A DNA stretch of 28,129 nucleotides from a virus, in the IMG/VR virus record IMGVR_UViG_3300031565_000275, positions 1 through 28,129 of that record, one strand, 5' to 3'. The stretch's first letter is position 1. The number at the start of each line of letters is the position of its first letter. The translations under genes were made by a program, and so were the position numbers. Of this stretch, positions 47 through 16,613 are shown piece after piece. Below the pieces are notes generated by a model. That model was not told where the DNA came from. It did not search any database and saw nothing but the letters and a program-made list of their open reading frames with translations.

Positions 47-325
47 ATGGATACATTTTCAAAAAAAGTATGTGACGAGCAGGGTCTAGACCCGGCTACT
101 ATTCTTTTAATAATTCAACTCTTAACAGAACTTCTTCCTTTATTAAAAGACTGTAGAAATGTTGAAAAATTAGCAGAAGGCATTGTTAAGCCCCGTACGA
201 TACGTGACCGAATACACCGTAGGTGGCTCTTAAATAAGACCAGAAAAGTTTTTGGTGATATACCTTTTGACCCCATAAAAGCTTGTGCTACAGAAGGCTT
301 ACAAGAATGTTTGGAATCCTTTTAA
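47..325 (+). CDS. Hypothetical 92-aa phage protein
   Basis: I do not recognise this family. The protein has a short acidic/polar N-terminus, a hydrophobic stretch at about residues 17-34 (ATILLIIQLLTELLPLL) that could be an amphipathic or membrane-associated helix, and a basic middle segment (residues 48-68, rich in Arg and Lys). The ATG at 47 follows AGGA at 37-40. Its 3' end overlaps the start of the next gene by 19 bases, which suggests translational coupling. The hydrophobic helix beside a basic segment would allow a small membrane-active or lysis-associated role, but this is a guess from composition only. That it is a real gene is supported by its coupling to the downstream exported-protein genes. 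Confidence 0.6.
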   Translation: MDTFSKKVCDEQGLDPATILLIIQLLTELLPLLKDCRNVEKLAEGIVKPRTIRDRIHRRWLLNKTRKVFGDIPFDPIKACATEGLQECLESF

Positions 326-978
326 GTATCATATTAGCACCAGTAAGTATCATATTAGCACCAGATACTGCACAAGTAGGAACACCTGTCCTCATAAAAG
401 CAGAAGTGTCTGGTGACTTCCTTTTAGACATAATACCAAAGAATCCTAATGATTCTGTTTTAGAAGTAAGTGATAGGTCAGGTGCTCCTGTAATTGTTTT
501 TTGGTCACAGCACCCTGGAACACGTACTATAATACTGGTTACTGGAGAGCCTTTAAATATAGAATACAAAGAATTATCTTATGGCTCGGTACCTGTACCT
601 GTACCTCCGGTACCGGTACCTCCGGTACCCGGCCCCAGCCCAGATTTACAAAAGCTTGTTGCTCCTTTAGTTAGTTTTGTAAACGCAACAAGCGTAAAAC
701 AAGAACATTTGGCTCTTTTACAAGAATTTTATACAGACTTTGCAGAAGTTGTTTCAGAGCAAAACATTATTAAAAATAATAGTCAATTTCGAGAAGCTTA
801 CGTAAACGCGGGTAAGCTTTTCTTTAATGGTAGAAATGTTTCTTATTCTGGCTTATCAGACCTTATAGAAAAAGTTTTGATAAGTACCTTAGGTACTGAC
901 CCAAGTGCTTTTGATCGCAGTGCTACTGTCGAAGCACTACAAGCAATTTCTTGGGCCTTCAAACAAGGAGAACGCTAG
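307..978 (+). CDS. Predicted exported protein with Pro-Val linker
   Basis: The protein starts with a hydrophobic secretion signal in which a seven-residue unit (VSIILAP) is duplicated. An N-terminal beta-rich domain (about residues 25-95) follows, with the look of a small Ig-like or planctomycete-type exported domain. A Pro-Val linker at about residues 95-112 leads to an alpha-helical C-terminal domain rich in charged residues. No catalytic motif is visible. I chose the ATG at 307 because AAGG lies about 10 bases upstream. A TTG at 283 in the same frame would add CYRRLTR, which would make a more classical basic signal-peptide n-region, so the start is uncertain. It is followed by a TAGTG overlap with the PEP-CTERM gene, so the two are probably co-translated. 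Function unknown; location outside the cytoplasmic membrane is inferred. Confidence 0.65.
   Translation: MFGILLSIILAPVSIILAPDTAQVGTPVLIKAEVSGDFLLDIIPKNPNDSVLEVSDRSGAPVIVFWSQHPGTRTIILVTGEPLNIEYKELSYGSVPVPVPPVPVPPVPGPSPDLQKLVAPLVSFVNATSVKQEHLALLQEFYTDFAEVVSEQNIIKNNSQFREAYVNAGKLFFNGRNVSYSGLSDLIEKVLISTLGTDPSAFDRSATVEALQAISWAFKQGER
323..364 (+). repeat. Perfect 21-bp tandem duplication in a signal peptide
   Basis: The unit at 323-343 (TAAGTATCATATTAGCACCA plus G) is repeated without change at 344-364. It encodes VSIILAP or LSIILAP in frame, so it doubles the hydrophobic core of the secretion signal of the gene at 307. Exact identity suggests recent slippage or unequal crossing over. Confidence 0.85.
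589..630 (+). repeat. GGTACC-rich microsatellite encoding a Pro-Val linker
   Basis: Units GGTACC, TGTACC and TCCGGTACC alternate through this stretch and encode alternating Pro and Val. The resulting stiff extended linker joins the beta-rich and helical halves of the exported protein. The array is palindromic at the hexamer level and would be prone to copy-number change. Confidence 0.8.
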
Positions 979-1502
979 TGAGAAGCTTAAAAATTTTTAT
1001 TGTTTTGACTGTTGCTCTTATTGGGTCAGTAGTTAGTGCAGGTCCTATATTTAATATTAGGGGCCAACTTGCAGGAGGCTTAGACGGTAGTCCTATTTTT
1101 GAAGTTTTTGAAGGGACAATGGGTTTTGATGATGCTGGTACTGTTATGACATTAGATGCTGAAATTTTTATAGTACCTAGAGATTACAATTTAACAACAA
1201 ATATAAAAACTGACGATAATGTAGACATTAGATTCTTTAAAAATAATAATGATTATTTTGTTTTTACAGACTACGAAGGGATTGCAGGAAGCTCTTTAAA
1301 TCCTACTTTTTATACGGATGAGCTAGGCAATGGAGGCTGGGATACACTTTCTTTTTATTTTAATAGTGTTGGTGTAGACGGTAATCCTGCATCTGGTGTT
1401 ATCACAAACATTACAGAAATCCCAAACGTTAATGAGCCAAGTGCATTAGCTCTTTTGTTTTTGGGAATGGCTTTTTGTTTAGGTTTCTTTAGGAAACGTT
1501 AA
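978..1502 (+). CDS. Exported protein with PEP-CTERM-like sorting signal
   Basis: The protein has the full layout of an exosortase substrate. An N-terminal signal peptide (hydrophobic residues 5-20) has a likely cleavage after SVVSA at 21. A secreted beta-rich body of about 130 residues follows. The C-terminus has the triplet Asn-Glu-Pro at 152-154, then SALALLFLGMAFCLGFF as a transmembrane helix and a terminal RKR. Known PEP-CTERM domains use Pro-Glu-Pro, a hydrophobic helix and an Arg-rich end, and are cut and anchored by exosortase in Gram-negative bacteria; the first proline is replaced here. The GTG at 978 is chosen because AAGGAG lies at 964-969 and the codon overlaps the preceding TAG. 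A longer form from 951 would put basic residues before the signal and lacks such a site. Ligand and role of the secreted body are unknown. Confidence 0.75.
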   Translation: MRSLKIFIVLTVALIGSVVSAGPIFNIRGQLAGGLDGSPIFEVFEGTMGFDDAGTVMTLDAEIFIVPRDYNLTTNIKTDDNVDIRFFKNNNDYFVFTDYEGIAGSSLNPTFYTDELGNGGWDTLSFYFNSVGVDGNPASGVITNITEIPNVNEPSALALLFLGMAFCLGFFRKR

Positions 1503-2486
1503 ATGTTTTCAAAATGGCCCCTGGGACGTAATCCAAGTCCCGCATCACTACAGAAGCTTTACGAAGATGGCTTTCCAGGCTGTCAAGTAAATCTTGCCGA
1601 GAAAGAATTATGCTATGAACAAGGCATAATTGCCAAAGCTGTTGACGCTGATGAACTCGTACAAAAGAATCCTGGCAAAGGCAAGTCGGCTTTTTTGTGG
1701 CGTAGTAGAGAAAAATATGACCCAGGGGCTTTTGGAGAAGAAAATCAAACAACAGGCGACTGTGTTAGTCATGGTGATAGAAATGCACGAGACACAGTAA
1801 GAAGTGTAGAAGTCCATATCAAAGGAGAGCTAGAAGAATACTTCTTAAGGGGTGCAACAGAACCTACATACGGGGCAAGAGGTCACAGTAGCGAAGGCAT
1901 GGACCCTTATAGGGCGTCCAAATTTGTAACACAAAATGGCTACCTTTTAAGACAAAACTATCCTGGTGTAGTTGATCTTTCAAAATACAATAGCCGCATA
2001 GGTACAGGTTGGGGCCGCAGTGGTGTGCCTCAAAATGTCGTAAATGAGTGCAAAAAGCATAAAGTTGGTCAATATATAATACCCAAGAACTCTGATCAAG
2101 CAATGGCTTTATTCTTTAATGGGTATGCTTGTCACTCAGGCCAAAATATTGGCTTTAGTAACAAGCCAGATTCTAAAGGTATTCATCCCCGCAAAGGTAA
2201 TTGGGCTCATGATATGGCTACCCTAGGATATGATGATACACGTACTATCTGGGATAGACGTGTTTATTTTGTATTTAATAGTTGGGGCGAATGGAATGAG
2301 CAATGGGTTACATGGGTACAGGATGTAGCCTTACAAAACCTTCTAGGGCCACCTATTGACGGCGTTATCGTATGTGATGCTTCTGTGTGGGAGCAATACT
2401 TTCTCGATGATGCTATGTTTTATTCTGACATTGAAGGCATCCCAATAAAAGGGATTCCAGACTACGGTACAGGAGCTTTCCTATGA
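1503..2486 (+). CDS. Papain-like (C1 family) cysteine peptidase
   Basis: The 327-residue protein carries the papain-fold catalytic set in the right order: an oxyanion glutamine and nucleophile in NQTTGDCVSHG (Gln82, Cys87), a histidine in GNWAHDM (His236) and an asparagine in FVFNSWGEW (Asn259). In C1 peptidases these form the Cys-His-Asn active site that hydrolyses peptide bonds. There is no signal peptide and no long N-terminal propeptide, so it probably acts in the cytoplasm, is released at lysis, or travels with the virion. ATG at 1503 directly follows the previous stop, with AGGAA upstream. It sits among exported and membrane proteins, upstream of packaging genes. It could process structural proteins, act in lysis or attack host surface proteins; the sequence does not decide. 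Fold assignment is strong, substrate is unknown. Confidence 0.8.
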   Translation: MFSKWPLGRNPSPASLQKLYEDGFPGCQVNLAEKELCYEQGIIAKAVDADELVQKNPGKGKSAFLWRSREKYDPGAFGEENQTTGDCVSHGDRNARDTVRSVEVHIKGELEEYFLRGATEPTYGARGHSSEGMDPYRASKFVTQNGYLLRQNYPGVVDLSKYNSRIGTGWGRSGVPQNVVNECKKHKVGQYIIPKNSDQAMALFFNGYACHSGQNIGFSNKPDSKGIHPRKGNWAHDMATLGYDDTRTIWDRRVYFVFNSWGEWNEQWVTWVQDVALQNLLGPPIDGVIVCDASVWEQYFLDDAMFYSDIEGIPIKGIPDYGTGAFL

Positions 2487-2788
2487 GAATTTTTCTTTGT
2501 TTTTTGGTTTGTTTGGTGTGTTCTACAGCAGAAGCAGGGCGTTTTAGGGCACGATTTTTTGGTTGTATAGGTGCTGCTTGCAGTCAGCAAGAAACTGAAA
2601 CTATTATAATTAATGAAACTGTTACGTATTCAGAGCCTGTTATAGTAGAACCTATTATAACTAATGAAACTATTACATATTCAGAACCCACTTTAGCAAG
2701 CCCTAATTTTATCAGATCAAGACCTGTTAGGCGTCCAGTACGTTCTATTATGCAATTACCTAAACAGTTGTGTGTTAAAGGCCACTGA
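2483..2788 (+). CDS. Small exported protein, 101 aa
   Basis: A clear signal peptide covers residues 1-18 (MRIFLCFLVCLVCSTAEA) with a likely signal peptidase I cut after AEA. No good lipobox is present, because the residue before the cysteines is valine. The mature part is short and contains two copies of a 17-residue unit with NET and TYSEP, then a basic Arg-Pro-rich tail. The ATG overlaps the TGA of the peptidase gene in an ATGA arrangement, and AGGAG at 2471-2475 serves it. A short exported, proline-bearing protein next to a membrane/coiled-coil protein recalls outer-membrane spanin partners, but the missing lipobox argues against a classical Rz1 lipoprotein. Function is not assigned. Confidence 0.65.
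   Translation: MRIFLCFLVCLVCSTAEAGRFRARFFGCIGAACSQQETETIIINETVTYSEPVIVEPIITNETITYSEPTLASPNFIRSRPVRRPVRSIMQLPKQLCVKGH
2601..2690 (+). repeat. 51-bp tandem repeat, two diverged copies
   Basis: A copy starting CTATTATAATTAATGAAACT at 2601 recurs at 2652 with a few base changes. It encodes the paired unit with NETVTYSEP and NETITYSEP in the small exported protein. The second copy fades after about 40 bases. Confidence 0.75.
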
Positions 2789-2799
2789 AACTAGTAGAT

Positions 2800-2815
2800 T
2801 AGTGTGGTCACACTA
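2800..2815. promoter_or_regulatory. Inverted repeat replacing the ribosome site of the next gene
   Basis: TAGTGTG at 2800-2806 and CACACTA at 2809-2815 are exact reverse complements around GT. The right arm ends on the A of the ATG at 2815, and no purine-rich ribosome site is present between the two genes. It could be an operator-like site or a small hairpin that limits initiation. Confidence 0.4.
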
Positions 2816-3267
2816 TGAACATATCGCTAGATGCTATTCTTCGCGATTCGGCATTGCTTTTTATACCTCTTCTTTTGGCCTACGTAATTTGGACTGCTAA
2901 AAGTATATACGATTTAAAGAAAAACACCATTGATGGTGCATTGTGTATGGCAAAATTTAGCAACTTAGAGAATGAAATATCTTTAAGCAAGCAATGGACA
3001 GCAAAGACTGAAGCAATGCTTGAACCAGATAGAGAGCTACGTAAACAATTTCCAATTGCCTTAGATTTAATACGTCAACATGGCGAAGCTTTACAGACTA
3101 TGAGAGAAACATTACTTTTAATACAAAAAGAGATATCTATAAAATTAACAGATTTAGAAAAAAAGATGACAAAAATAGAAGAGAGTTGTTTTTTCCATAA
3201 ATCAAGCGAGTCTGAAAAATTTAGAAAGTTTCTTTTACAAGAAAATGATGATGCAACTCAACTCTAA
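2815..3267 (+). CDS. Membrane-anchored coiled-coil protein
   Basis: A single hydrophobic helix at about residues 13-27 (LLFIPLLLAYVIW) is followed by a long charged helical part with heptad-like spacing of Leu and Ile (about residues 45-130). That topology, one N-terminal membrane anchor and a coiled-coil domain, is the one seen in inner-membrane spanins and in some holin-associated proteins, so a lysis role is possible. The gene follows the small exported protein, which would fit a spanin pair, though neither member has a decisive motif. The ATG at 2815 is forced, because an in-frame TAG lies at 2800-2802 and the next methionine is 45 residues downstream. The start lacks a recognisable ribosome site and overlaps an inverted repeat. 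Function uncertain. Confidence 0.6.
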   Translation: MNISLDAILRDSALLFIPLLLAYVIWTAKSIYDLKKNTIDGALCMAKFSNLENEISLSKQWTAKTEAMLEPDRELRKQFPIALDLIRQHGEALQTMRETLLLIQKEISIKLTDLEKKMTKIEESCFFHKSSESEKFRKFLLQENDDATQL

Positions 3268-3330: not shown

Positions 3331-3882
3331 ATGATAGATAATAAATTTCAACGTTGGAATACAAGTATTGATGATCCTCGTGAAAGGTGCGAGGGGACTG
3401 TTGCTACAGGTCAATGCCCTTATAAAAAGTATGAAGGCACTAATTATTGTGCTATGCACGGTAGCAATTCAGGCAGAATAAAAAAGCATGAAGAAATAAA
3501 AAGAAACTATAGGCTTAATCGTTGGCACAAAAGAATGACTGAATTTGCCGACGGTGATGAAGTCAAAAGCCTACGTGAAGAAATCGGTATCTTAAGAATA
3601 ATTATGGAAGAGATGTTAAATAAGTGCGAAGATAGTACAGATCTTTTGCTATATGCACATCGTATATCTGATTTGGCTGTAAAGATAGAAAGACTAGTTA
3701 TTAGTTGTGATAAACTTGAAGGCAGAATGAATTTGCTTCTTTCAAAGAGAGCTATTTTGCATTTGGCCAATTCTTATGTACAAATAATAAATACGTATGT
3801 CACAGATGCTGACACAATCGAACAAATAAGCACAGAAATGCTTGCAGTTACAGAACAGTTAGAGAATCCTGTTGGTGACTAA
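3331..3882 (+). CDS. Zinc-finger protein, candidate small terminase subunit
   Basis: The N-terminus holds a probable zinc site built from Cys20, Cys29, Cys40 and His43, ending in YCAMHG, a pattern seen near the start of several phage small-terminase-like and DNA-binding proteins. The rest (residues 55-180) is helical and charged with long runs suited to oligomerisation. Small terminase subunits recognise the packaging site and recruit the large subunit. The position two genes before the large terminase and the size of 183 residues agree with that role, but no helix-turn-helix is evident, so another DNA-binding function is possible. The ATG at 3331 has no clear ribosome site. Its stop is joined directly to the start of the small membrane-protein gene (TAAATG). 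Confidence 0.55.
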   Translation: MIDNKFQRWNTSIDDPRERCEGTVATGQCPYKKYEGTNYCAMHGSNSGRIKKHEEIKRNYRLNRWHKRMTEFADGDEVKSLREEIGILRIIMEEMLNKCEDSTDLLLYAHRISDLAVKIERLVISCDKLEGRMNLLLSKRAILHLANSYVQIINTYVTDADTIEQISTEMLAVTEQLENPVGD

Positions 3883-4058: not shown

Positions 4059-5702
4059 ATGCATGAACTTGCTTCTTTACTTACAGAACGATTGTCTTCC
4101 GGCCTTAGAAGGAAAAGCATTGTTACACCTTCTAAATGGGCCGAAGCATACAGAATTATGGGGATGCCTTTTACAGGCCCTTGGACTTTTAAAAGGCATC
4201 CCTGGCTTAGGGCAATGCACGACTCACCTCATGAAATAAACGTAGGACAAAAAGCTGCCCAGATGGGCTTCACTGAAACAGTTTTAAATATAGTTTTTTA
4301 TTATATTGATATACATGGTGTAGATTGCTTATATGTTTTACCTTCGAAAACTCCGGATGCAAGTGACTTTTCTGCTGCACGTTTTGATGCTGCTTTAGAA
4401 ATGTCTGAACATCTTAGAAAGATGTTTTCGAATGTAAAAAATGTAGGTCATAAAAGAGCCGGCAACACAAACCTTTACATCCGTGGTGCAAAAAGCCGTT
4501 CAGGTCTTAAGTCTGTTCCTGTTGGGATCTTGATCTTTGACGAAAAAGACGAAATGAATCAAGACAATATCCCGTTAGCTAGAGAAAGACAATCAGGACA
4601 AGACCTTACTAGAACTTGGGAAATCAGTACACCTACCGTAGATAGTTTTGGGATTAATAAAACATTTGAAATTTCAACGCAAAACGATTTCTTTTTCAAA
4701 TGTCCCAGTTGCTCTCGCTTTATTAATTTAACTTTCCCAGAATCTTATGAAATCTGCGGCACTGATTATATGGACCCAGATATTAGCAAATCGTATCTTA
4801 AATGTAATATTTGCGAGAGCAAATTAAATCACGAGAATAAACATGAGTGGTTACAAACCGGCAGATGGATACCACGCTACGAAGGAAGAGAAATTGGAGG
4901 GTGGGGTATTAGTCAAATGTACTCCACCACAATCAAACCAAGGAACTTTATTGAAAGTTATTACAGAGCAAAGACGAATCCTGCGGATGAGCAAGAATTT
5001 TATAACTCAAAGCTTGGCCTTCCTCATGTTGTTGAGGGGGCGAAACTCTCAGAAAAAGACATAGAAAGTTGTATAGGCGACCATGTTACATATGATCGAA
5101 ATAATGCTGGTCTGGTAACTATGGGTGTTGATGTAGGCACAAACCTGCATTACGAAATTGATAAATGGTTCATTGGTCCAAATACAGTAGACCTAAATGC
5201 AGAAGCAAGATGTCAAGTACTCGTAGCAGGAAAAGTTTTACACTTTGAAGAGTTAGATGAATTAATGAGAAAATATAACGTATCTAGTTGTGTAATTGAT
5301 ATACAGCCAGAACGTCGTAAAGCGTATGAATTTGCTGCAAGATTTTGGGGAAGAGTAAGACTTTGTTATTATGGTAGAGGTATTCAAGGCAAACAAATAC
5401 ACTTGGGTTCGGATGAAGACTTAACAGTAACAGTAGACAGAACATCTTGGATAGATTTAAGTCTTAGTCGTTTTAGAACTCACTCAATATCTTTACCCCA
5501 AGACATTTCAAGAGAATATAAAAATCATCTTACATCGCTTGTACGTATTTACGAAAAAGATGTAGACGGTAACCCAATAGGCAAGTATGTAAAAGCTTCT
5601 AGCAGCGAAGACCACTTTGCCCATGCTAGAAATTATTCTGAAATAGCGTTACCTTTAGGAGCTGCACTTGGTCAAGCCCACAATATAATCGGAAGAGTGT
5701 AA
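4059..5702 (+). CDS. Terminase large subunit, GpA type
   Basis: This is the packaging ATPase-nuclease that pumps DNA into the prohead and cuts it. The ATPase half has a deviant Walker A-like loop at residues 62-70 (VGQKAAQMG), Walker B at 156-164 (GILIFDEKD, with Asp161-Glu162) and a coupling motif EISTPT at 188-193. A four-cysteine zinc site (Cys215, 218, 249, 252) lies between the domains, as in lambda GpA relatives. The nuclease half shows metal-binding acids in GVDVG (Asp357), VIDIQ (Asp414) and EDHFAHA (Asp518). The length of 547 residues is usual for the family. It is followed without a gap by the portal gene (TAAATG). The family is known to make either cohesive or headful ends, so the packaging mode is not settled. 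Confidence 0.93.
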   Translation: MHELASLLTERLSSGLRRKSIVTPSKWAEAYRIMGMPFTGPWTFKRHPWLRAMHDSPHEINVGQKAAQMGFTETVLNIVFYYIDIHGVDCLYVLPSKTPDASDFSAARFDAALEMSEHLRKMFSNVKNVGHKRAGNTNLYIRGAKSRSGLKSVPVGILIFDEKDEMNQDNIPLARERQSGQDLTRTWEISTPTVDSFGINKTFEISTQNDFFFKCPSCSRFINLTFPESYEICGTDYMDPDISKSYLKCNICESKLNHENKHEWLQTGRWIPRYEGREIGGWGISQMYSTTIKPRNFIESYYRAKTNPADEQEFYNSKLGLPHVVEGAKLSEKDIESCIGDHVTYDRNNAGLVTMGVDVGTNLHYEIDKWFIGPNTVDLNAEARCQVLVAGKVLHFEELDELMRKYNVSSCVIDIQPERRKAYEFAARFWGRVRLCYYGRGIQGKQIHLGSDEDLTVTVDRTSWIDLSLSRFRTHSISLPQDISREYKNHLTSLVRIYEKDVDGNPIGKYVKASSSEDHFAHARNYSEIALPLGAALGQAHNIIGRV

Positions 5703-7502
5703 ATGGCTACTGATTTAGTTTCTAGTGCTGACTTTGACATAGCAGATATTCTTGGTGCTGGTATAAAAATCAGTGACATAAGGCACCCTGATTATACTGG
5801 TATGTGTGACGATTGGTATAAGTGGCGTTTGACTTACAAAGCAGGTGATTCTTTTATAGAAAGGTATTTAGAAAAACTTAGCACCAGAGAAGATACTACA
5901 GACTTCATAAATAGAAAACGTATGAGTTACGTTCCTGCTTTTGCAAAAGCAGCAGTCAACGAAGTCAAGGATTCTATTTTTCAAAGAATATCTGACGTTA
6001 CTCGAAAAGGTGACTCTTTAACTTATGAGAGAGCTACAAAAGGGCTTGATGGTGGTGTCGATTTAGCAGGCACCACAATGAATAGCTACATAGGTAGGTA
6101 CCTATTAGATGAGCTTTTAGTAATGTCTAAGGTTGGTGTCTTCATAGACATGCCGCCTATAAATGGTCCTACCTTAATCGATCAATACAATTCAAGACCT
6201 TATATTTATCATTATAGAACAGAGGACATTCTTAATTGGGATACAGAACACCGAACAGAAACAGTTTTTACAAAGTTATTATTAAAAGAAAACGTCTACA
6301 AGAAAGACTTAGCTACAGGCTTACCTACAGAATTAGTTGAAAGATATCGGTTCTTATGGGTACAAGATGACAGGGTTCTTGTTCATTTCTTTGATGAAGA
6401 CTCTAGACCTATAGACCGTTTTGGCATGGAAGGTATAGATGTTTTAGAAATTAATTTACCTTATATACCTTTTGTTAAATTTGACATAATGGATAGCTTG
6501 CTTACTGATGTAGCTAACTATCAAATAGCTTTACTTAATCTAGCATCATCAGATATTGCATACGCTCTTAAATCTAATTTTCCTTTTTATCTAGAACAAT
6601 TTGATCCAAGAGTAGACAACCTATATAGTAGGCCAGTTGGTCATGAATCTTTGGATGGCGTAAATATAATAAAGCCCGGAGAAAGAGACGATTCTGTAGC
6701 GGCTAAAAATTATGAAATCGAAGTAGGTTCAATGACTGGAAGACGTGTACCTAAAGGCTTAGAAATGCCTAGGTACATTCATCCTTCTTCAGAGCCTCTT
6801 AAAGCTTCGATGGCTAAACAGGAAGAACTTAAAAAAGATATTAGAATGCTTGTAAAGTTAGCAGTAGCTAACCTGTCACCAAAGATGGCATCTGCTGAAA
6901 GTAAGAATTTTGATGAACGTAGTCTAGAGGCAGGCTTAAGTGCTATTGGCTTAGAGTTAGAACATGGCGAAAGAATGATCGCTAAGTTCTGGCAAATGTA
7001 TGAAGACTCAAATGCAAATCCGCCAACAGTCAAGTATCCTCAGAAATATAGCTTACAAAGCGATAAGGAAAAACGCCAAGAAGCAAAAGACCTTCATGAC
7101 AGTCTTAAAAGTAATCCTTCTTTGACCTATAAAAAAGAAGCATACAAACTTATCTCAGAAACCTATGTAGGTTCAAGAATAGCCCAAGAAACTAGAGACA
7201 AAATAAATGAAGAAATAGATAAAGCAGAAGTAATTTATAGTGAATGGGAAGAATTAAACAGGGACGTAGAATTAACTTTAATAGATCCTGAAACAGCTAG
7301 TTTGGCAAAAGGTTATCCAGAAGGCTCTGTAGCTAAAGCTAATATTGCACATGCAGAACGGGTAAAGCGGATAGCCGAATCCCAAGCAAAAGCTAGAGGT
7401 ACAACAGATTTGGGCGGCTTAGAAAATGTAGGACGTGCTGAAAAAATAGAAAAAGATACCGAAGAAGTAGCAAAAGAAAAGACACGCGGCAATGCCAACT
7501 GA
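5703..7502 (+). CDS. Portal protein
   Basis: The portal forms the dodecameric ring at the head vertex through which DNA enters and leaves, and it docks the terminase. The protein has 599 residues and begins with the usual flexible segment. A core with an alpha/beta clip-like region follows (YIYHYRTEDILNW near residue 165), then a long helical stem and wing region around residues 265-300 (NLASSDIAYALKSNFPFYL), which resembles DUF4055-type portals. The C-terminal 120 residues are very charged and helical and rich in Lys and Glu. Location right after the large terminase strongly supports the call. GGAAG/GAG precede the ATG. The 3' end overlaps the LamG protein gene by 11 bases. No truncation is seen. 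Confidence 0.85.
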   Translation: MATDLVSSADFDIADILGAGIKISDIRHPDYTGMCDDWYKWRLTYKAGDSFIERYLEKLSTREDTTDFINRKRMSYVPAFAKAAVNEVKDSIFQRISDVTRKGDSLTYERATKGLDGGVDLAGTTMNSYIGRYLLDELLVMSKVGVFIDMPPINGPTLIDQYNSRPYIYHYRTEDILNWDTEHRTETVFTKLLLKENVYKKDLATGLPTELVERYRFLWVQDDRVLVHFFDEDSRPIDRFGMEGIDVLEINLPYIPFVKFDIMDSLLTDVANYQIALLNLASSDIAYALKSNFPFYLEQFDPRVDNLYSRPVGHESLDGVNIIKPGERDDSVAAKNYEIEVGSMTGRRVPKGLEMPRYIHPSSEPLKASMAKQEELKKDIRMLVKLAVANLSPKMASAESKNFDERSLEAGLSAIGLELEHGERMIAKFWQMYEDSNANPPTVKYPQKYSLQSDKEKRQEAKDLHDSLKSNPSLTYKKEAYKLISETYVGSRIAQETRDKINEEIDKAEVIYSEWEELNRDVELTLIDPETASLAKGYPEGSVAKANIAHAERVKRIAESQAKARGTTDLGGLENVGRAEKIEKDTEEVAKEKTRGNAN

Positions 7503-9870
7503 ACCACTGGCAGTAACTTGTGCAGGTGCAGCAACACTAGATTGTGTTGTCTCGCCTATATTATTATTAAGAGATCTTGGCGGCAACCAAGAAGGTACTG
7601 ACGGTGCAACTGTTCAAAGCTCACCAGTAGATGGTGGCGATTATTATAGTTTTGATGGTGTAGATGACGGCTTTCATTACGGTGTTTCAAGCATACCTGA
7701 GAATAGTCATGATGGACATATTAGATTTAGAGTACATGACAGGTACACTTTAAATATTACTAATGGGCGTATTCTTTGGAAATCTGGATCTAACTCGCAA
7801 GGTATAGGTGTAGGTTTTCATGTTAAAAGTGGGAGCTTTGGGTTAGGGGCTTTTTCTAGCTCAACCTACACTTACATACGGATACCTCAGTTTGTTTTAA
7901 AATTGGGTAGATGGTACGATTTTAGGTGGAGCGTAGTTAATGACAAAATATATTTAAAAGATTTACTTACGGGTGAAACGTTTTCCAAAACAGGCTCTAT
8001 AGCTGCTGGGGATAGTTCTGGTGGCTTCGAGAGTATTGGTTATTCATCAGCGTCTAATCCAGTTGGCGGAGGGCCTGGGTCTGACGGTTACTGTAATTGT
8101 GATGTAGATTTTGTAAAAATTTATGATGGTGGTAGTTTACCTATTCCTACAGGGGATAACACAGCTCCTAATGCAGAAGTAATTAAGCTTTATATTGGTG
8201 ACGACCGAGATGGAGATTGTGATTATGTAGCTTTTGGTACCTCAAATCAAGGTACCTATTATTACTTTGATGGTACTGCTGGGCTGTATGACCTAAATGG
8301 GGAGTTTTATGATGACTCTAAAATGGAGTTTGAAATCCGTTTTAGAGCACACGATAAAAATGCAGGCAGTAATCAAACAATTTTTAAGGGTGGTTCTGAA
8401 AATAACGGCGTAGCAATAGGTATTAACACTAGCGGTGATTTGGGTATTTATGGTAGAAGCGGCGGTACCTTAACAAGCATAAAAATAGCCTCAGCAAATT
8501 ATAGTGATGATGTCTGGTATATAGTAAGAGCCAGCCATACAAAAATAGAATTACAAAGAGTAAGTGATGGTGGAATACAGTCAAGTAATACTGGGACTGT
8601 TACAGCTTCAGAAGGTAATGATAGGTGTTCTGTATCCTATTCTTCTGCTGGTAAAATACTTTCTGGTACTTCTGGGACAGGCGACTATTTTGAAGGTGAT
8701 ATAGGAGAAGTTTTTGTATGGGACTCTTCACAAGGTGGTGTTCCATTTGTAGGTAATGTTGTATACCAAGAAGCATCTACAGATACTTCTAGTACAATAA
8801 CCTTCACCTCAGATGCCACTGGAAATGCAACTAGACAATTTTCAGCAACTTTATCCGGGGCGGTAACATTAGCCGCAAACCTTTCACATACTAAAAATTT
8901 TCCTGTAACTTTATCTGGTACAGGCACTGTTAATGCAGAGCTGCTTTTTGGTGGTGATGCAATAACAGTGGGGCTTGAAGGTTCTGGGTTTTTAACAGCA
9001 GACCTTACAAAGTATCCTAAGCCTTTAGATGTATCTATTTCGGGTACAGGTACTTTAGCAGCAGCACTTACAGAGACGGTTGAACAGTTTGTAGTTTCTT
9101 TAAGTGCTTCTGCTAGTGTATCTTGCAACGTATCAACGCTTCCTAAGTTAGATGCTTCATTAAGCGGGTCAGCAAGTCTTGAAGTTTCATTAAGATTTAC
9201 AGTTTCCGAAAGCGTATCTGATACTCTTACTTTTAGTGATGATGCAACAGATAGTTACAAATTAGTTTTACCTTATCTAGTAGACCCTATTACTTTTACT
9301 AGTGATGTCGTAGTATCAAATATTTTAACTATTGACGTTTCTAATGTATTAAATTTAACAGGCGTAGCAACAAGAAATTCTATATCTATAAAAGCTGTTT
9401 CAAGCACTTTAGGCTTTACACAAGATAATATTAATTATACGGGTATTACTGACTCTGTAATAGTTGTAAATTTAAAAGAAAAAACTTATGTAGTTTTGGA
9501 AGCACCTTTTGAAGCTATAGATGCTGTCATTATTTTACCAAACCCTTTACATACCGATACAGAAAATTTAATATCTAGTATTAATTTGCGACGATCTATG
9601 AATAATAAAAAATACACATACGTAAAATCTTCAGATAATAGAATCTTAAGATATACTTTTACTTTAAATAGAAATAAAGCTTTAGAATTACAAGATTTCT
9701 TTAGATTTTATAATGCAAACTTTATGAAAATGAGTAATTGGAAAGGTGAAATTTGGAAAGTCCAACTAAAAACTAACCCTATTGACTTTTCGCAAGTCAC
9801 AAGATACAGCCCTACAGGGGCACGTGTAGATGTTAATTTAGAATTTGAAGGGACTCGGGTATATGCCTAA
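7492..9870 (+). CDS. LamG-domain structural/fibre protein with 20-aa repeats
   Basis: This 792-residue protein looks like a virion surface or fibre component. Two concanavalin/LamG-like jelly rolls sit at about residues 50-215 (YYSFDGVDDG at the first strand) and 254-415 (TYYYFDGTAG). LamG folds bind carbohydrate or protein ligands. At residues 447-569 there are six copies of a 20-residue Ser/Thr/Gly/Ala unit (for example LSGTGTVNAEL) also found about 47 times in the protein at 12552. The N-terminal EPLAVTCAGAATL also matches that unit. The last 130 residues form a compact domain rich in aromatic and basic residues, reminiscent of tail adaptor domains. ATG at 7492 overlaps the portal gene. 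Virion attachment is inferred from context; no enzyme motif is seen. Confidence 0.65.
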   Translation: MPTEPLAVTCAGAATLDCVVSPILLLRDLGGNQEGTDGATVQSSPVDGGDYYSFDGVDDGFHYGVSSIPENSHDGHIRFRVHDRYTLNITNGRILWKSGSNSQGIGVGFHVKSGSFGLGAFSSSTYTYIRIPQFVLKLGRWYDFRWSVVNDKIYLKDLLTGETFSKTGSIAAGDSSGGFESIGYSSASNPVGGGPGSDGYCNCDVDFVKIYDGGSLPIPTGDNTAPNAEVIKLYIGDDRDGDCDYVAFGTSNQGTYYYFDGTAGLYDLNGEFYDDSKMEFEIRFRAHDKNAGSNQTIFKGGSENNGVAIGINTSGDLGIYGRSGGTLTSIKIASANYSDDVWYIVRASHTKIELQRVSDGGIQSSNTGTVTASEGNDRCSVSYSSAGKILSGTSGTGDYFEGDIGEVFVWDSSQGGVPFVGNVVYQEASTDTSSTITFTSDATGNATRQFSATLSGAVTLAANLSHTKNFPVTLSGTGTVNAELLFGGDAITVGLEGSGFLTADLTKYPKPLDVSISGTGTLAAALTETVEQFVVSLSASASVSCNVSTLPKLDASLSGSASLEVSLRFTVSESVSDTLTFSDDATDSYKLVLPYLVDPITFTSDVVVSNILTIDVSNVLNLTGVATRNSISIKAVSSTLGFTQDNINYTGITDSVIVVNLKEKTYVVLEAPFEAIDAVIILPNPLHTDTENLISSINLRRSMNNKKYTYVKSSDNRILRYTFTLNRNKALELQDFFRFYNANFMKMSNWKGEIWKVQLKTNPIDFSQVTRYSPTGARVDVNLEFEGTRVYA
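8832..9198 (+). repeat. Six 20-21-residue beta repeats in the LamG protein
   Basis: Copies begin near FSATLSGAVTL, FPVTLSGTGTV, ITVGLEGSGFL, LDVSISGTGTL, FVVSLSASASV and LDASLSGSASL. The DNA copies are diverged, while the pattern of alternating small and hydrophobic residues is kept. Confidence 0.75.
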
Positions 9871-10723: not shown

Positions 10724-11578
10724 ATGGACTCTCCAGTTTTTGTTAACCCTTTAGACAGAAAAATATTTTGGTTAGCGAGTTATCCTAAATCAGGTAATAC
10801 TTGGGTCAGGATGTTTTTGAATGCCTATATAACAGGGTTTCCAGTTAATTTAAATTCCGCTTATCAATTTGTAAGCGGAGACTTTAGACCAGAACTTTTT
10901 CAAATGATGGTCACACGGCCTATTAACCAATTAACAATAAAAGAGCAGTACTATTTTTACCCTGGTCTTTTATTAAACATTCTAGGGATGAGTAACACTT
11001 TATACGTTTGCCTAAAAACACATCATGCAAAAGTTAAAGTAGATGAAATCCCTTTAATCCCTGTAGAACTTACTGAAAAAGCTATTTATGTAATGCGTGA
11101 CCCAAGAGATATTGTTCCAAGTCTTGCAGACCATTTTGGGTTAACTTTAGACAAAGCTATAGACTTTTTAGGAAATGAACAACAGGGGGCAGAGCAAAAA
11201 GGCACGGGCTTAACACATCTTCTTTTATCTTGGAGATTACACGTTAAAAGCTGGGCGAGCAAACCTAGCCCCATAGAAACTATAATTATTAAATATGAAG
11301 AACTTCTAGGTAATCCAAGAGGTACTTTCGAAAAAATTATAGCAGCTTTTAATTTTGAAATGGACGAAGCTCGTTTTGACTTTGCTTTAGAACAAACTAA
11401 ATTTAAGAACCTTCAAAAAATGGAACAAGAAGGTACTTTTAGAGAAAAGTCTTCAGAGAGCAAAAAGTTCTTTAGGGAAGGAAAAGCTGGCAATTGGAAA
11501 AACGTATTAAGCAGAGGGCAAGCAAAAAGAATTGAATCAGAGCATCGTGAAGAGATGAAAACTTTTGGGTACCTTTAA
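10724..11578 (+). CDS. PAPS-dependent sulfotransferase
   Basis: The enzyme would move a sulfonate group from 3'-phosphoadenylyl sulfate (PAPS) to a hydroxyl or amine acceptor. All landmark motifs of the Sulfotransfer_1 family are in place: the 5'-phosphosulfate loop YPKSGNTW (residues 20-27), a likely catalytic histidine in LKTHH (His100), the 3'-phosphate site YVMRDPRD with Ser133 (122-133), the LLSWRLHVKSW segment (167-177) and the C-terminal REGKAGNWKN (251-260). The length of 284 residues is full for the cytosolic type, with no signal peptide, so it acts in the cytoplasm. The acceptor is unknown; candidates are a virion protein or glycan, or a host surface glycan or lipid. It lies inside a run of structural genes, with the next ORF overlapping its stop by one base (TAATG). 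Confidence 0.88.
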   Translation: MDSPVFVNPLDRKIFWLASYPKSGNTWVRMFLNAYITGFPVNLNSAYQFVSGDFRPELFQMMVTRPINQLTIKEQYYFYPGLLLNILGMSNTLYVCLKTHHAKVKVDEIPLIPVELTEKAIYVMRDPRDIVPSLADHFGLTLDKAIDFLGNEQQGAEQKGTGLTHLLLSWRLHVKSWASKPSPIETIIIKYEELLGNPRGTFEKIIAAFNFEMDEARFDFALEQTKFKNLQKMEQEGTFREKSSESKKFFREGKAGNWKNVLSRGQAKRIESEHREEMKTFGYL

Positions 11579-11814: not shown

Positions 11815-12552
11815 ATGCCTAGAGTAGATTACAATACCAAGCAAGCCTTCGATTCAGCATATGATGTTGATGTTGAATGGGATACTGGTAGACCCCAAAA
11901 CAGAAAAGGTGTACGCTTAAAGTACTCAAGGGCAGTACTGTTGCCTTTAATAGAGACACGTGCTTTAAAATTGCTAGAAATTTTTAATTGGCCAAGTACC
12001 ATAAAACTTTTAATAGTTGGTGGTGGCTTTGGGTGGCTTGCCGAAGTCCTTGAAGAGCATTTTAATTTTAATAATATAGCGGTTACAGATACTTCTAATT
12101 ACGTACACTCTTCAAAAAATGTATCAGAAGATGAAGACATATTTGAAGCCATAAGGGGGACAGGATTAGATCCTAATTATGGAGAAGGGTCCATAATAAA
12201 AAGTAGAATACTTGGGAAAGCGAGAGGTGAAGGAGTAAGGACAAGACACTCTAAAGGCGTTCTTAATGAATCCTTAAAAAATAATGGGAGTAGAGCCAGA
12301 GTAAAAAATCAACTTGGCGGCAACCCAGATGTAATATTAACAGAGGAAGTTATTACTTGTTTAGAAGATTCAGAAACAATTAACTTATCACAAGATTTAC
12401 ATTTTTTATGTGACACAATTATACATTTAACAACTGAGCTACTCCCTAATAATCTACAAGATCTATCCTATAACTGGAAAACATTAGATGACTGGAAACA
12501 GTTACTGCCTAATGATACTTTATTGTCATTAAATACTTGGAGGGTTATTTAA
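11815..12552 (+). CDS. Class I SAM methyltransferase-like protein
   Basis: A Rossmann-type methyltransferase core is visible. Motif I is LLIVGGGFGWLAEVL at residues 65-79, an acidic residue ends the second strand (VTDTS, Asp92), and a fourth-strand motif PDVILTEEVI lies at 171-180. An unusual charged insert of about 60 residues (about 105-165, rich in Gly, Arg, Lys, Asn) separates them. S-adenosylmethionine would be the methyl donor; the acceptor is unknown. The Gly-rich loop is not the usual E/DxGxGxG, so loss of activity is possible. The ATG follows the previous TAA directly. The stop overlaps the next ATG (TAATG). Placement near the sulfotransferase and before a giant fibre-like protein suggests a surface-modifying task, but this is inference. 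Confidence 0.6.
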   Translation: MPRVDYNTKQAFDSAYDVDVEWDTGRPQNRKGVRLKYSRAVLLPLIETRALKLLEIFNWPSTIKLLIVGGGFGWLAEVLEEHFNFNNIAVTDTSNYVHSSKNVSEDEDIFEAIRGTGLDPNYGEGSIIKSRILGKARGEGVRTRHSKGVLNESLKNNGSRARVKNQLGGNPDVILTEEVITCLEDSETINLSQDLHFLCDTIIHLTTELLPNNLQDLSYNWKTLDDWKQLLPNDTLLSLNTWRVI

Positions 12553-15500
12553 TGCCTACAACAATAAAAACCTCAAGTGGAACGGTAAATTCCCAATGTA
12601 TTTGTCAAGATGGTACAAGTGTAAACGTTAGAATTGTTGCTAGGGATTCTGCTAACGGTACTATTGAATGTTGGTGGTTCTTTAATGATACTTGGTCACT
12701 TGTTGACGATGCCGATGCTCCAGCTGTAACTGGTACCCTTGTAGGCCCTGTTTGCTCAATAGCTTTAAAAGGCGACTCTGAAGTAATTGCAGCATATCTG
12801 GATGATTCTGCATCTAGTCCAGCGTTAACAGTCGCAAGATGTGGCACACCGCAATCAAGTTCACCCAGTCAATGGGGTACAGCTTCAGCCATAGATAGCT
12901 TTGGTTCCCATAATTTAGACGAAGCTAATGGTGGTTTCGTCGGGATGTCTAATGCAGGTTCTGCAGGGGTTATTTTATATTCTGGAGACCTTGATAAAGT
13001 TCATGGAACAGATTACTCTAGGGTAGACTATGCAGTTTTTCTTTCCGGGGCATGGTCCACAGGTCGTCAGATAGGCGGTACAAGCTCTGATCAAATAAAT
13101 TATTATCCTTATAGTATAACACCAGTTTCATATAACGATGGTACTTATGATAGGACATGGATAGGTTATATTGATGGGTCTACAGGTTACTTGTGGTCTT
13201 ATAACCTGGGTTGTTCAACCACTACAACAATATCTGCTAATAATACACAAATAACTTCTACATCTTTAAATACTATTTCTTCAAATCTTATGCGGCAAGG
13301 TGTAAATATTGGGCAGTATGATAATTCTGGTACAAGAGTAGTGACGTTCTTTTATTCATTAAGTGGTAGTTCAGGCACAGTAAGATCAAGAAGTTTTCAT
13401 AATGGTACACTACAAACTGAAAAAATATTATCTAGTTCGGCAGCAAATGATAACTCTTTTGTATGTAGTATAACTTCTGATGATGAAACAAATACTCATT
13501 ACGGAGTATACAACCCATCTGGCGGTGATAACAGAAATTATAAAACTTCTATAGCTGAAGCCGCTTGGGGTAATGATACTTCTTTAATAACTGCAGAAAC
13601 TAGTGTAGCTCCAGCGGTTCAGATAATCTCAAATGGGACTTCCAAAAACCTAACAATAGTTTGGAGTTCCTCAAATGGGAATAATTTGTATTATGACAAA
13701 TTATCTTTTGGTCAGACAGAACCCCTTGTTGTAACTTGTTCAGCTTCGGGTACGCTGGCAGGGAGTCTTAAAAAAACAAGAAGTCTTTCTGCCACTCTAT
13801 CTGGAACGGGCACACTTTCTGCTGCTTTAGATTTTGCTATAGTCTTAGAACCTTTAGTGGCTACATTTAATGGGGCAGCTACTTTATCAGCTGACCTATC
13901 TTCTAGTACACCTTTAGCGGCTAGTCTTTCTGGTTCTGCTTTAGTAACTGCTAACCTTAAAAAGAAGACACAGTTTTCTGCTGCCCTGTCGGGTATAGGT
14001 ACATTAGCCGCTTCCTTAACGAAGACAAAAAGTCTCTCTGCCACTTTGGCAGGTACAGGTACGCTAGCTAGTGCTTTAAACAAAACAAGAAATCTTTCTG
14101 CTTCTGTAGGAAGCGTAGGTACGTTAGTAAGTGCCTTTGAAAAGACAAGAAGCATAGTTGCTGATGTAACAGGCACAGGTACGTTAACTGCTTCCTTAAC
14201 AAATACAATAAGTCTTTCTGCAACTTCTAACAGTACAGGTACACTAACGGGTTCCTTAACAAGGACTCTAAGATTTTCTGCCACTTTGGCAGGTACAGGT
14301 ACTCTTTCTTGTACCTTAGGAGTAGCCAAAAGTGTTTCTGTTACCCTTGCGGGTACAGGTACGTTAGTTGCTTCCTTAACGAAGACAAGAAGCCTAGTTG
14401 CTGACGCAACAGGCACAGGTACGTTAACTGCTTCCTTAACGAAGACAAGAAGTCTAGTCGCTGATGCGGCAAGCACAGGTACGCTCTCAGGTTACATTAA
14501 CCTTAATAGGAGTCTTTCTGCTTCTCTCACTGGTACTGCACAAATTGCTTGTAACTATTTTGAACGTACCTTTATAGCTTGTTCCCTAAGCTCTAATGCT
14601 ACTCTTTCTGGCACCCTTACTCTTAATAGAAATCTTTCTGCTTCTGTAGGAAGCGTAGGCACATTAGCAGGTTCTCTAACAAAGACAAGAAATCTTTCTG
14701 CTTCTGTAGGAAGCGTAGGCACATTAGCAGGTTCTTTAAAGAGAATAAGAAGCCTAGTTACTGACGCAACAGGCACAGCCACCCTTTCTGCTGATATTAA
14801 TCTTAATTTGCAGCTTAGTACGTCCCTAGATGGGGTAGCCACAGTAACAAGTGCCTTAGAGCGTACCAGAAGTCTTAGTACGGCTCCTAATGGGCTAACT
14901 ACAGTAACAAGTGCCCTGGAGCGTACCAGAAGTCTTGCAGTTAGCACTGCTGGCACAGGTTCCCTGGCGGTAGATCTTTTACAATACACATACTTAGCGA
15001 CTACTTTGACAGGCACAGGTACGCTTGCAGCTAATTTAGAAAGAACTGTTCAATTATCTGCTTCTTTTGCAGGTACAGGTACTCTAGCATCAGAGCTTAT
15101 TGAACGCTCTTATTTAAGTGCTACGGCTACTGCTGTAGCTACCTTAATGGGTAATCTTAAAGGTACATTATCTGCTACACTTGCAGGTACCGCTTCAATA
15201 GATGTTAATCTTACAGATGCCGCCGGTCTTAATGCTACCTTAGACGGCTCTGCTGCTGTAGCGGCTACTTTAATAGTTAACAGAGAACTAGATGCCTCCT
15301 TAGTAGGTACAGCTTCGGTAGTAGCCGATCTAACAAGATCCAGAAGTCTATCTGCTATACTTGCAGGTACCGCTTCCCTTACAGGCTCTCTTAAAGGTAC
15401 TTTATCGGCTAGTACGACAGGCACAGGCACTCTAGTAGCAGATCTTTCTAAGAGCAGTCAGCAAGCCCTAAGTGCTACAGCTACTGCCATAGGCACGTTA

Positions 15501-16613
15501 GGAGCTGCCTTAGAAAGAACTGTCGCTTTAGATGCTACCGCCGCAGGCACAGCCACTCTTGCTGGTATTATTAATCTTAATAGAAAGCTATCTGCTACGG
15601 TTACTGCCATAGGCACAGTAGCAAGCTCTCTTAATCTTAATAAAAAACTTACCGCTAGCTTAGTTAATACGGGCACCCTAGTAGCAGATCTTTCTAAGAG
15701 TAGTCAGCAAGCCCTAAGTGCTACAGTTACTGCCGTAGGCACATTAGCGGTTGCCTTAGAAAGAACTGTTGCTTTAGATGCTACAGCAGCAGCCACAGCT
15801 ACGCTTGTAGCAGACTTATCGGTTGGAGCAGAAAAGAATTTATCTGTTACGGTTACTGCCGTAGCTACGTTAGCGGCTAACCTAGAAAGAACGAGAAGTC
15901 TTACGACTAGTGCGACAGGCACAGGCACACTAGTAGCAAACTTATCAGCGGGTGCAGAAAAGAATTTGTCTGTTACGGCTACTGCCGTAGGCACATTAAC
16001 AGGTTCTCTAACAAAGACAAGAAGCCTTTCCGCTAGTGCCTCAGGGTCAGCTACAGTAGCAGCTAATTTAGAAAGAACAAGAAGCCTATCCGTTAGTGCG
16101 GCAGGCACAGGTACTCTTACAGGTTCTTTAGAAGAGTCTACAGATTTAAGTGTTACAGCTACAGCAGTAGCTTCAGTGGCCGCTAATCTAACTGTAGAGA
16201 CACCTGGATTAACAGTTTCTTTAAGTAGCACCAGTAATCTTTCAGGTAATCTTAACCGTAATAGAAAACTTTCTTTAGCCTTATCTGCTTCTGGTAGCTT
16301 AGATGCTGACTTAAAAAGGACAAGAAATCTTTCAGCTACCGCTGGAGGGCTTGCTACGCTAATAGCAGACCTTGAAGAAAAGACTTTATTCTCTTGTGTT
16401 TTTAATACTTCTTCGCAAACATCTTCTGCATTGGTTAGAACAAGAAGCTCTTATGTATCGTTAAGTGGAGTAGCTCTTTTAAGTTGCAATTTTAGTAGGT
16501 CAAGATCGTTATCTGTTGGGGTAGATGGTCTTGCAAATTTATCTGTTGACCTTATTAAAACGGCACCTTTTAAAGCTTGGCGTGTAACCAAATATAACAC
16601 ACTTTACACATAG
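12552..16613 (+). CDS. Giant repeat fibre/adhesin-like protein, 1353 aa
   Basis: The N-terminal 390 residues are beta-rich, with repeated Trp, Gly and Asp turns and sheet segments, resembling a propeller or sialidase-like receptor-binding fold. From about residue 392 to 1335 the protein is an almost unbroken array of about 47 units of 20 residues, with consensus LSATLAGTGTLAASLTKTRS; a few units have 2-3 extra residues (SSQQA, GAEKN) or lack three. The alternating small and hydrophobic residues suggest a beta-solenoid or long stacked fibre. A short tail ends APFKAWRVTKY. GGAGG at 12539-12543 sets the ATG at 12552, overlapping the methyltransferase stop by one base. It probably forms a long virion fibre or adhesin; no catalytic residues are evident. 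Reading as a non-fibre exported protein is possible, but no signal peptide is present. Confidence 0.7.
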   Translation: MPTTIKTSSGTVNSQCICQDGTSVNVRIVARDSANGTIECWWFFNDTWSLVDDADAPAVTGTLVGPVCSIALKGDSEVIAAYLDDSASSPALTVARCGTPQSSSPSQWGTASAIDSFGSHNLDEANGGFVGMSNAGSAGVILYSGDLDKVHGTDYSRVDYAVFLSGAWSTGRQIGGTSSDQINYYPYSITPVSYNDGTYDRTWIGYIDGSTGYLWSYNLGCSTTTTISANNTQITSTSLNTISSNLMRQGVNIGQYDNSGTRVVTFFYSLSGSSGTVRSRSFHNGTLQTEKILSSSAANDNSFVCSITSDDETNTHYGVYNPSGGDNRNYKTSIAEAAWGNDTSLITAETSVAPAVQIISNGTSKNLTIVWSSSNGNNLYYDKLSFGQTEPLVVTCSASGTLAGSLKKTRSLSATLSGTGTLSAALDFAIVLEPLVATFNGAATLSADLSSSTPLAASLSGSALVTANLKKKTQFSAALSGIGTLAASLTKTKSLSATLAGTGTLASALNKTRNLSASVGSVGTLVSAFEKTRSIVADVTGTGTLTASLTNTISLSATSNSTGTLTGSLTRTLRFSATLAGTGTLSCTLGVAKSVSVTLAGTGTLVASLTKTRSLVADATGTGTLTASLTKTRSLVADAASTGTLSGYINLNRSLSASLTGTAQIACNYFERTFIACSLSSNATLSGTLTLNRNLSASVGSVGTLAGSLTKTRNLSASVGSVGTLAGSLKRIRSLVTDATGTATLSADINLNLQLSTSLDGVATVTSALERTRSLSTAPNGLTTVTSALERTRSLAVSTAGTGSLAVDLLQYTYLATTLTGTGTLAANLERTVQLSASFAGTGTLASELIERSYLSATATAVATLMGNLKGTLSATLAGTASIDVNLTDAAGLNATLDGSAAVAATLIVNRELDASLVGTASVVADLTRSRSLSAILAGTASLTGSLKGTLSASTTGTGTLVADLSKSSQQALSATATAIGTLGAALERTVALDATAAGTATLAGIINLNRKLSATVTAIGTVASSLNLNKKLTASLVNTGTLVADLSKSSQQALSATVTAVGTLAVALERTVALDATAAATATLVADLSVGAEKNLSVTVTAVATLAANLERTRSLTTSATGTGTLVANLSAGAEKNLSVTATAVGTLTGSLTKTRSLSASASGSATVAANLERTRSLSVSAAGTGTLTGSLEESTDLSVTATAVASVAANLTVETPGLTVSLSSTSNLSGNLNRNRKLSLALSASGSLDADLKRTRNLSATAGGLATLIADLEEKTLFSCVFNTSSQTSSALVRTRSSYVSLSGVALLSCNFSRSRSLSVGVDGLANLSVDLIKTAPFKAWRVTKYNTLYT
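13725..16560 (+). repeat. About 47-copy 60-bp/20-residue repeat array
   Basis: Units run end to end with a 60-bp period kept exactly for long runs, for example the consecutive copies with CTTCTGTAGGAAGCGTAGGC at 14641 and 14701. Larger segments are also duplicated. A 126-bp stretch from 15435 recurs at 15681 (246 bp apart, four units), and one from 15807 recurs at 15933 (126 bp apart, two units). Most other copies are diverged at synonymous sites, so the array is old with recent local expansions. Confidence 0.85.

Follow-up and report, generated by a model that had tools for sequence, protein, structure and literature searches.

The PEP-CTERM system was proposed from comparative genomics as a protein-sorting route in which a signal peptide directs export, a C-terminal helix provides retention, and EpsH/exosortase recognises the PEP motif at the periplasmic face (Haft et al. 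2006, PMC1569441). In Zoogloea, floc formation requires a PEP-CTERM protein together with exopolysaccharide (PMC9012009).

Here we describe gene 3 of an IMG/VR virus record (G000), whose whole stretch of 28,129 bases, with a GC content of ~38%, was analysed and is referred to below as the window. Like PEP-CTERM proteins of the EpsH system (TIGR02595, PF07589; PMC1569441), the gene 3 protein has a predicted signal peptide, no further membrane segment and no known domain, is low in Cys and basic residues and high in Asn, and terminates in a motif, a helix and a basic tail. It would also share its predicted sorting route with PepA, the flocculation-associated PEP-CTERM protein (NF033554; role reviewed in PMC9012009), although it gave no match to the PepA model NF033554 itself. 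That the protein has no close homologue likewise fits the PEP-CTERM family description. Unlike the cellular members, which are mostly encoded in single-gene operons, gene 3 is phage-encoded within a tight operon, carries NEP in place of PEP and obtains borderline model scores.

Two phage systems are also close. Unimolecular spanins, of which gp11 of phage T1 is an example, consist of an export signal, a beta-rich ectodomain and a C-terminal helix. The gene 3 protein resembles them in its predicted export, its C-terminal helix with basic tail and a possible lysis neighbourhood, and perhaps also in a beta-rich ectodomain, the strands of gene 3 being seen only in a low-confidence model; unlike them it lacks a lipoprotein signal. 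Strict identity as a unimolecular spanin was ruled out, as there is no lipobox and the only Cys is residue 167. The lipoprotein Llp of phage T5 is the product of a moron gene that alters the host surface, and gene 3 appears similar to such morons in being accessory, lineage-specific and envelope-directed, but it would employ exosortase instead of lipoprotein sorting.

Gene 3 is a real gene in a probable, tightly packed operon

The main genes of the window (terminase, portal, P22-type coat and tape measure) are found on the + strand, and those surrounding gene 3 are listed in Table 1; a tRNA search of the window found none. The ORF at 978-1502 is confirmed as a real gene. It extends from a GTG start (978-980) to a TAA stop (1500-1502), with its start overlapping the TAG stop of gene 2 (976-978) and the ATG of gene 4 following at 1503. 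Its coding score is +0.38 bits/codon in frame and negative in all other frames, its GC3 of 0.20 matches that of the neighbouring genes, and its codon usage is that of the phage in the correct frame only.

Table 1. Features of the gene 3 region (L009 is the nearest related phage)
Feature	Position	Strand	Basis
Gene 1, small protein with LLPLL amphipathic stretch	47..325	+	small counterparts at same spot in relatives (by eye)
Gene 2, gene 4 partner with a hydrophobic N-terminus, a PxP linker and the conserved terminus ...AISWAFK	307..978	+	41% to L009 product
Shine-Dalgarno AAGGAG	965..970	+	7 nt 5' of GTG; sequence
Gene 3, PEP-CTERM-like protein, 174 aa, GTG start overlaps preceding stop	978..1502	+	TIGR02595, 17.4 bits
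Gene 3, predicted signal peptide, residues 1-21, cleavage between VSA and G, no lipobox	978..1040	+	rule-based; helix 2-19 in low-confidence model
Gene 3, mature body, no Cys, pI ~4.05, Asn 10.7%, K+R 3.8%, predicted beta strands	1041..1430	+	composition, AF2
Gene 3, PEP-CTERM-like sorting signal NEP-SALALLFLGMAFCLGFF-RKR	1431..1499	+	profiles, layout
Gene 4, papain-like cysteine peptidase homologue, 327 aa	1503..2486	+	motifs QTTGDCVSH, HDMAT, NSWG (alignment)
Gene 5, short protein, signal peptide	2483..2788	+	L009 counterpart at 2496-2789
Gene 6, coiled coil and N-terminal membrane segment	2815..3267	+	ORF list
Probable small terminase subunit	3331..3882	+	62% in L009, directly 5' of TerL there
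Large terminase subunit (TerL)	4059..5702	+	PF05876, phrog_675
Portal protein	5703..7502	+	phrog_145

The gene 4 product is 44-61% identical to its nearest counterparts in viral and Pirellulales contigs, and was assigned to the papain-like class by eye, having no match in Pfam.

Repeats were seen at several places in the window. A perfect 21-base tandem duplication (323-364; SIILAPV-SIILAPD) falls within the part of gene 2 that encodes its hydrophobic N-terminus, a 1,358-residue protein at 12537-16613 is made of ~20-residue repeats (LSATLAGTGTLxASLTKTRS; DNA periods 30/60/126), and the gene at 7492-9870 has repeats resembling these. At the contig end (27796-28129) the tape measure gene closes in repeats of 42/120 bases (SEDTVSKSLARSL), and these may explain the end of the contig there. 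A PF00685 sulfotransferase gene (10724-11578) was found within the structural block; it is also present in L009 and L010, while L011 and L012 have two copies.

Layout and composition of the gene 3 protein

The protein starts as MRSLK-IFIVLTVALIGSV-VSA followed by G, predicted to be a Sec-type signal peptide by hydropathy and the -3,-1 rule, and finishes at its extreme end as EIPNV-NEP-SALALLFLGMAFCLGFF-RKR, where a hydrophobic stretch of the PEP-CTERM type (~14 residues) precedes the terminal basic cluster. KD windows >1.6 are restricted to residues 1-27 and 153-172, indicating that there is no internal membrane segment, and the sole Cys is located inside the C-terminal helix. An AF2 model computed without an alignment contains a helix at 2-19, eight strands and a helix at 155-173, with low confidence (pLDDT 45.6, pTM 0.28), and by this model the body is probably beta-rich. 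The layout described by the sequence-only reading (signal peptide, beta-rich body, C-terminal helix and RKR) is therefore borne out by the rule-based signal peptide and by hydropathy, the strands coming from the low-confidence AF2 model.

Compared with the phage's own proteins, the gene 3 body is poor in K+R (3.8 versus 10.5%), has 0 Cys and is rich in Asn (10.7 versus 5.1%). Thr is about equal and Ser is lower (4.6 versus 8.8%), where more would be expected of a PEP-CTERM protein.

Match of the C-terminus to PEP-CTERM sorting signals

With TIGR02595 the gene 3 protein scored 17.4 bits in the genome scan and 14.0 bits in whole-protein hmmscan (cut-off 16), and with PF07589 15.6 bits, below the cut-off of 20.7. 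The near-invariant Pro-Glu-Pro is replaced by Asn-Glu-Pro at residues 152-154, the TIGR02595 match beginning at the Glu (position 3), and this loss of the first Pro is the likely cause of the borderline scores. Because the curated models were borderline, we built a profile from ~50 PEP-CTERM tails of Pirellulales genomes and scored it against the end of every stop-to-stop ORF in the related viral contigs (n = 7,104), including those of the second PEP-CTERM phage (L134), which was put into the set because of its TIGR02595 hit. Gene 3 ranked first among the 7,104 viral ORFs (23.1 bits, E 2.3e-5), followed by L134 at 13.3 bits and the next at 7.6. The top score was 11.9 bits in 71,040 shuffled ends, and 9.0 bits in 20,000 shuffles of the gene 3 end. 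A signal-peptide-like start combined with a terminal helix and basic tail was found in 8 of 4,466 viral ORFs, with the EP motif in gene 3 alone.

PEP was present in 37 of the 39 Pirellulales tails that were read, the remaining two apparently being in wrong frames, and no further virus was hit by a DNA pattern written for the NEP tail. Since NEP departs from the near-invariant motif, we refer to the gene 3 product as PEP-CTERM-like and not as a strict member of the family; it could still work like a PEP-CTERM protein. Taken together, the earlier interpretation is partly supported: the proposed sorting signal stands insofar as the C-terminus matches TIGR02595 weakly and the Pirellulales profile clearly, but not as a PEP motif proper or by PF07589.

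Gene 3 as a lineage-specific accessory gene

Genes 1, 2 and 4 form a module that recurs in other phages, consisting of a small LLPLL protein, an exported PxP-linker protein and the papain-like peptidase homologue, and this module is envelope-directed. In the nearest phage, L009 (TerL 71%, peptidase 61% identity), genes 2 and 4 directly adjoin, and recognisable gene-2-like products adjoin the peptidase gene elsewhere too (e.g. L003, L039, L040, L050 and L060), whereas in the window gene 3 is placed scarlessly between them. None of the 35 nearest related viral records gave a TIGR02595 match above cut-off. The adjoining genes 2 and 4 of the relatives, together with the lack of such a gene in these 35 records, indicate that gene 3 is a lineage-specific accessory gene, and its absence from them that it is dispensable.

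Searches for relatives of the gene 3 protein found none in IMG/VR or plasmids, and one match of E 0.8 in deposited phages. Against 397 Pirellulales genomes there were five hits at E <= 0.01, approximately the number expected by chance; PEP-CTERM-type ends are present in all five, and in most of them it is this end that aligns. One hit, outside the tail, was obtained from 392 planctomycete genomes. These searches thus yielded no cellular donor of gene 3. As a separate candidate, a defence function was rejected, PADLOC giving no match for genes 2-7.

PEP-CTERM genes in other phages

That gene 3 is phage-encoded, as had been claimed, holds, and phage-encoded PEP-CTERM proteins recur in IMG/VR. 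A second phage of the gene 4 network (G095, 155 kb) encodes a 193-residue exported protein ending in VPEPSTIIMSIICIGVLIGVKSLC, which scored 16.2 bits with TIGR02595 in the scan and 13.1 bits in the whole-protein scan. This phage also encodes a DUF1559 pilin-like protein, DUF1559 being a family expanded in planctomycetes. DUF1559 / H-X9-DG pilin-like genes (PF07596, E down to 1e-50) were seen in phage records L068, L073, L074, L083, L120 and L121 (G059, G064, G065, G072, G094 and G095, respectively), where they represent a further kind of surface protein of planctomycete hosts.

IMG/VR was scanned with two DNA patterns written for VPEP tails. The first found true C-terminal tails in 45 of 45 contigs and the second in 23 of 76 contigs by our criteria, a few of them doubtful; about 60 further contigs carry canonical PEP-CTERM tails. 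Part of these may be proviruses with host flanks. Surroundings were checked in named contigs, among which the PEP-CTERM gene is flanked by portal and major head genes in L195 and by terminase and a major head gene in L206, lies close to the major head gene in L225, and is found 3' of tail genes in L222. Three phage-borne proteins, of L206, L210 and L234, are weakly PepA-like (49, 42 and 39 bits versus the NF033554 cut-off of 80). Clustering of the phage-borne proteins was used only as a rough count, as it is inflated by the shared tail. Deposited phages gave no PEP-CTERM protein, although two of the queries used (one joined protein excerpt and one of 25 residues) count as weak evidence, and the open-access literature, which leaves most subscription journals outside its scope, gave no paper on phage-encoded PEP-CTERM proteins.

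Further arrangements were seen among these contigs. The phage-like L230 has two PEP-CTERM genes (1898-2476 and 4122-4832) ~1.6 kb apart on opposite strands. Short phage proteins of L248 (2345-2647), L262, L247 and L302, each kept in two contigs, have a VPEP-helix-basic tail with no evident signal peptide, a topology that is puzzling for an exosortase substrate.

Candidate hosts and their exosortase

The virus probably infects planctomycete bacteria, to judge from gene 4, whose six best cellular matches (44-53%) are all in Pirellulales/Planctomycetaceae MAG contigs. Weaker matches come from bins assigned to Flavobacteriales, Lokiarchaeota and SAR202, making a planctomycete host likely rather than proven. 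A pattern-based scan of genome contigs found no relative of TerL, and the planctomycete relatives of TerL are only distant (24-29%), so that TerL does not fix the host. Exosortase, which candidate hosts had been predicted to possess, was found in 82 of 98 sampled Pirellulales genomes and in all seven planctomycete MAGs holding related phage genes; several planctomycete MAGs are rich in PEP-CTERM proteins, with a maximum of 48 matches in one. Hence a model match at the C-terminus and an exosortase in candidate hosts, the two points on which the sequence-only reading had staked its proposal, were both found. Its mention of lysogeny went unsupported, given the lack of a TerL relative in the same pattern-based scan, and a role for gene 3 in lysogenic conversion was rejected, with nothing in the 28 kb fragment in its favour.

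By eye, L039 is a phage-like region of a Pirellulales MAG contig in which terminase-like as well as portal-like genes are seen. It contains a Kelch-like PEP-CTERM gene (2027-3166, - strand) ~7 kb away from the gene for the phage peptidase, and the Kelch-like gene is either prophage cargo or host flank.

Possible role of gene 3

We lean slightly towards gene 3 being a tailed-phage accessory gene, set between two genes of a conserved envelope-directed module, with a product that would be a substrate of the host exosortase. Judging by its position and overlaps, gene 3 would be translated in a tightly packed operon beside the terminase genes; its product is predicted to be exported by Sec, trimmed by signal peptidase and anchored in the inner membrane through its C-terminal helix, the RKR lying on the inner side. 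Following the PEP-CTERM/EpsH model, host exosortase would recognise and cleave the NEP site and the acidic body would be passed to the outer surface or the exopolysaccharide matrix, where it may change the surface of the infected cell. Our guess at the likeliest benefit, a doubtful one, is altered adsorption (a block of re-adsorption or superinfection) or a matrix loosened for release.

The main alternative, which we consider rather unlikely, is an ordinary phage membrane protein anchored by its C-terminal helix and serving in spanin-like lysis or superinfection exclusion, with a fortuitous NEP and no action of exosortase. The gene 3 module, in which signal-peptide proteins, a peptidase and a membrane protein precede the terminase, is a possible lysis-cassette site, and export or membrane segments are also encoded by genes 2, 5 and 6; yet the insertion is missing in the nearest relative, and gene 3 is thus not an essential lysis gene. 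Export signal, beta body and C-terminal helix are equally the layout of T1 gp11, but a protein with no lipobox and no Cys before residue 167 is not a unimolecular spanin as defined. The NEP motif and the borderline curated cut-offs would suit a fortuitous resemblance, whereas the Pirellulales profile score far exceeds those of the other viral ORFs and of the shuffles.

It is improbable that gene 3 is passenger DNA, a former host PEP-CTERM gene whose product was once an exosortase substrate and which now drifts from PEP towards NEP and brings the phage nothing: its presence in one lineage only and its departure from the host consensus are as expected, but its codon usage is fully phage-like, its frame is intact with Shine-Dalgarno and overlaps kept, and such genes recur independently in other phages. 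A chance resemblance of the C-terminal helix of a signal-peptide protein to a sorting signal, or an assembly artefact, is very improbable, for although the motif has only 24 residues and the curated scores are weak, the tail ranks first among all scored viral ends, no shuffle came near it and the junctions of gene 3 are scarless on both sides.

If gene 3 does encode an exosortase substrate, it would not stand alone, as the dozens of other uncultured phages with ordinary-tag genes suggest that phages may use the host exosortase export route. Whether unrelated tailed-phage lineages of exosortase-bearing bacteria (here the planctomycete phages, and the phages whose PepA-like genes are interspersed with those for terminase, portal and capsid) encode exosortase substrates independently of one another, and so place a viral protein on the surface or matrix during infection, is a wider reading to which we give slightly less than even chances. 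If true, exosortase, a sorting route that is poorly understood in its substrates and purpose, would give phages access to the outer surface and the exopolysaccharide of environmental bacteria. Phage resistance and superinfection in bacteria that form biofilms or flocs would then become easier to approach, and compact phage-borne substrates would be available for the study of exosortase.
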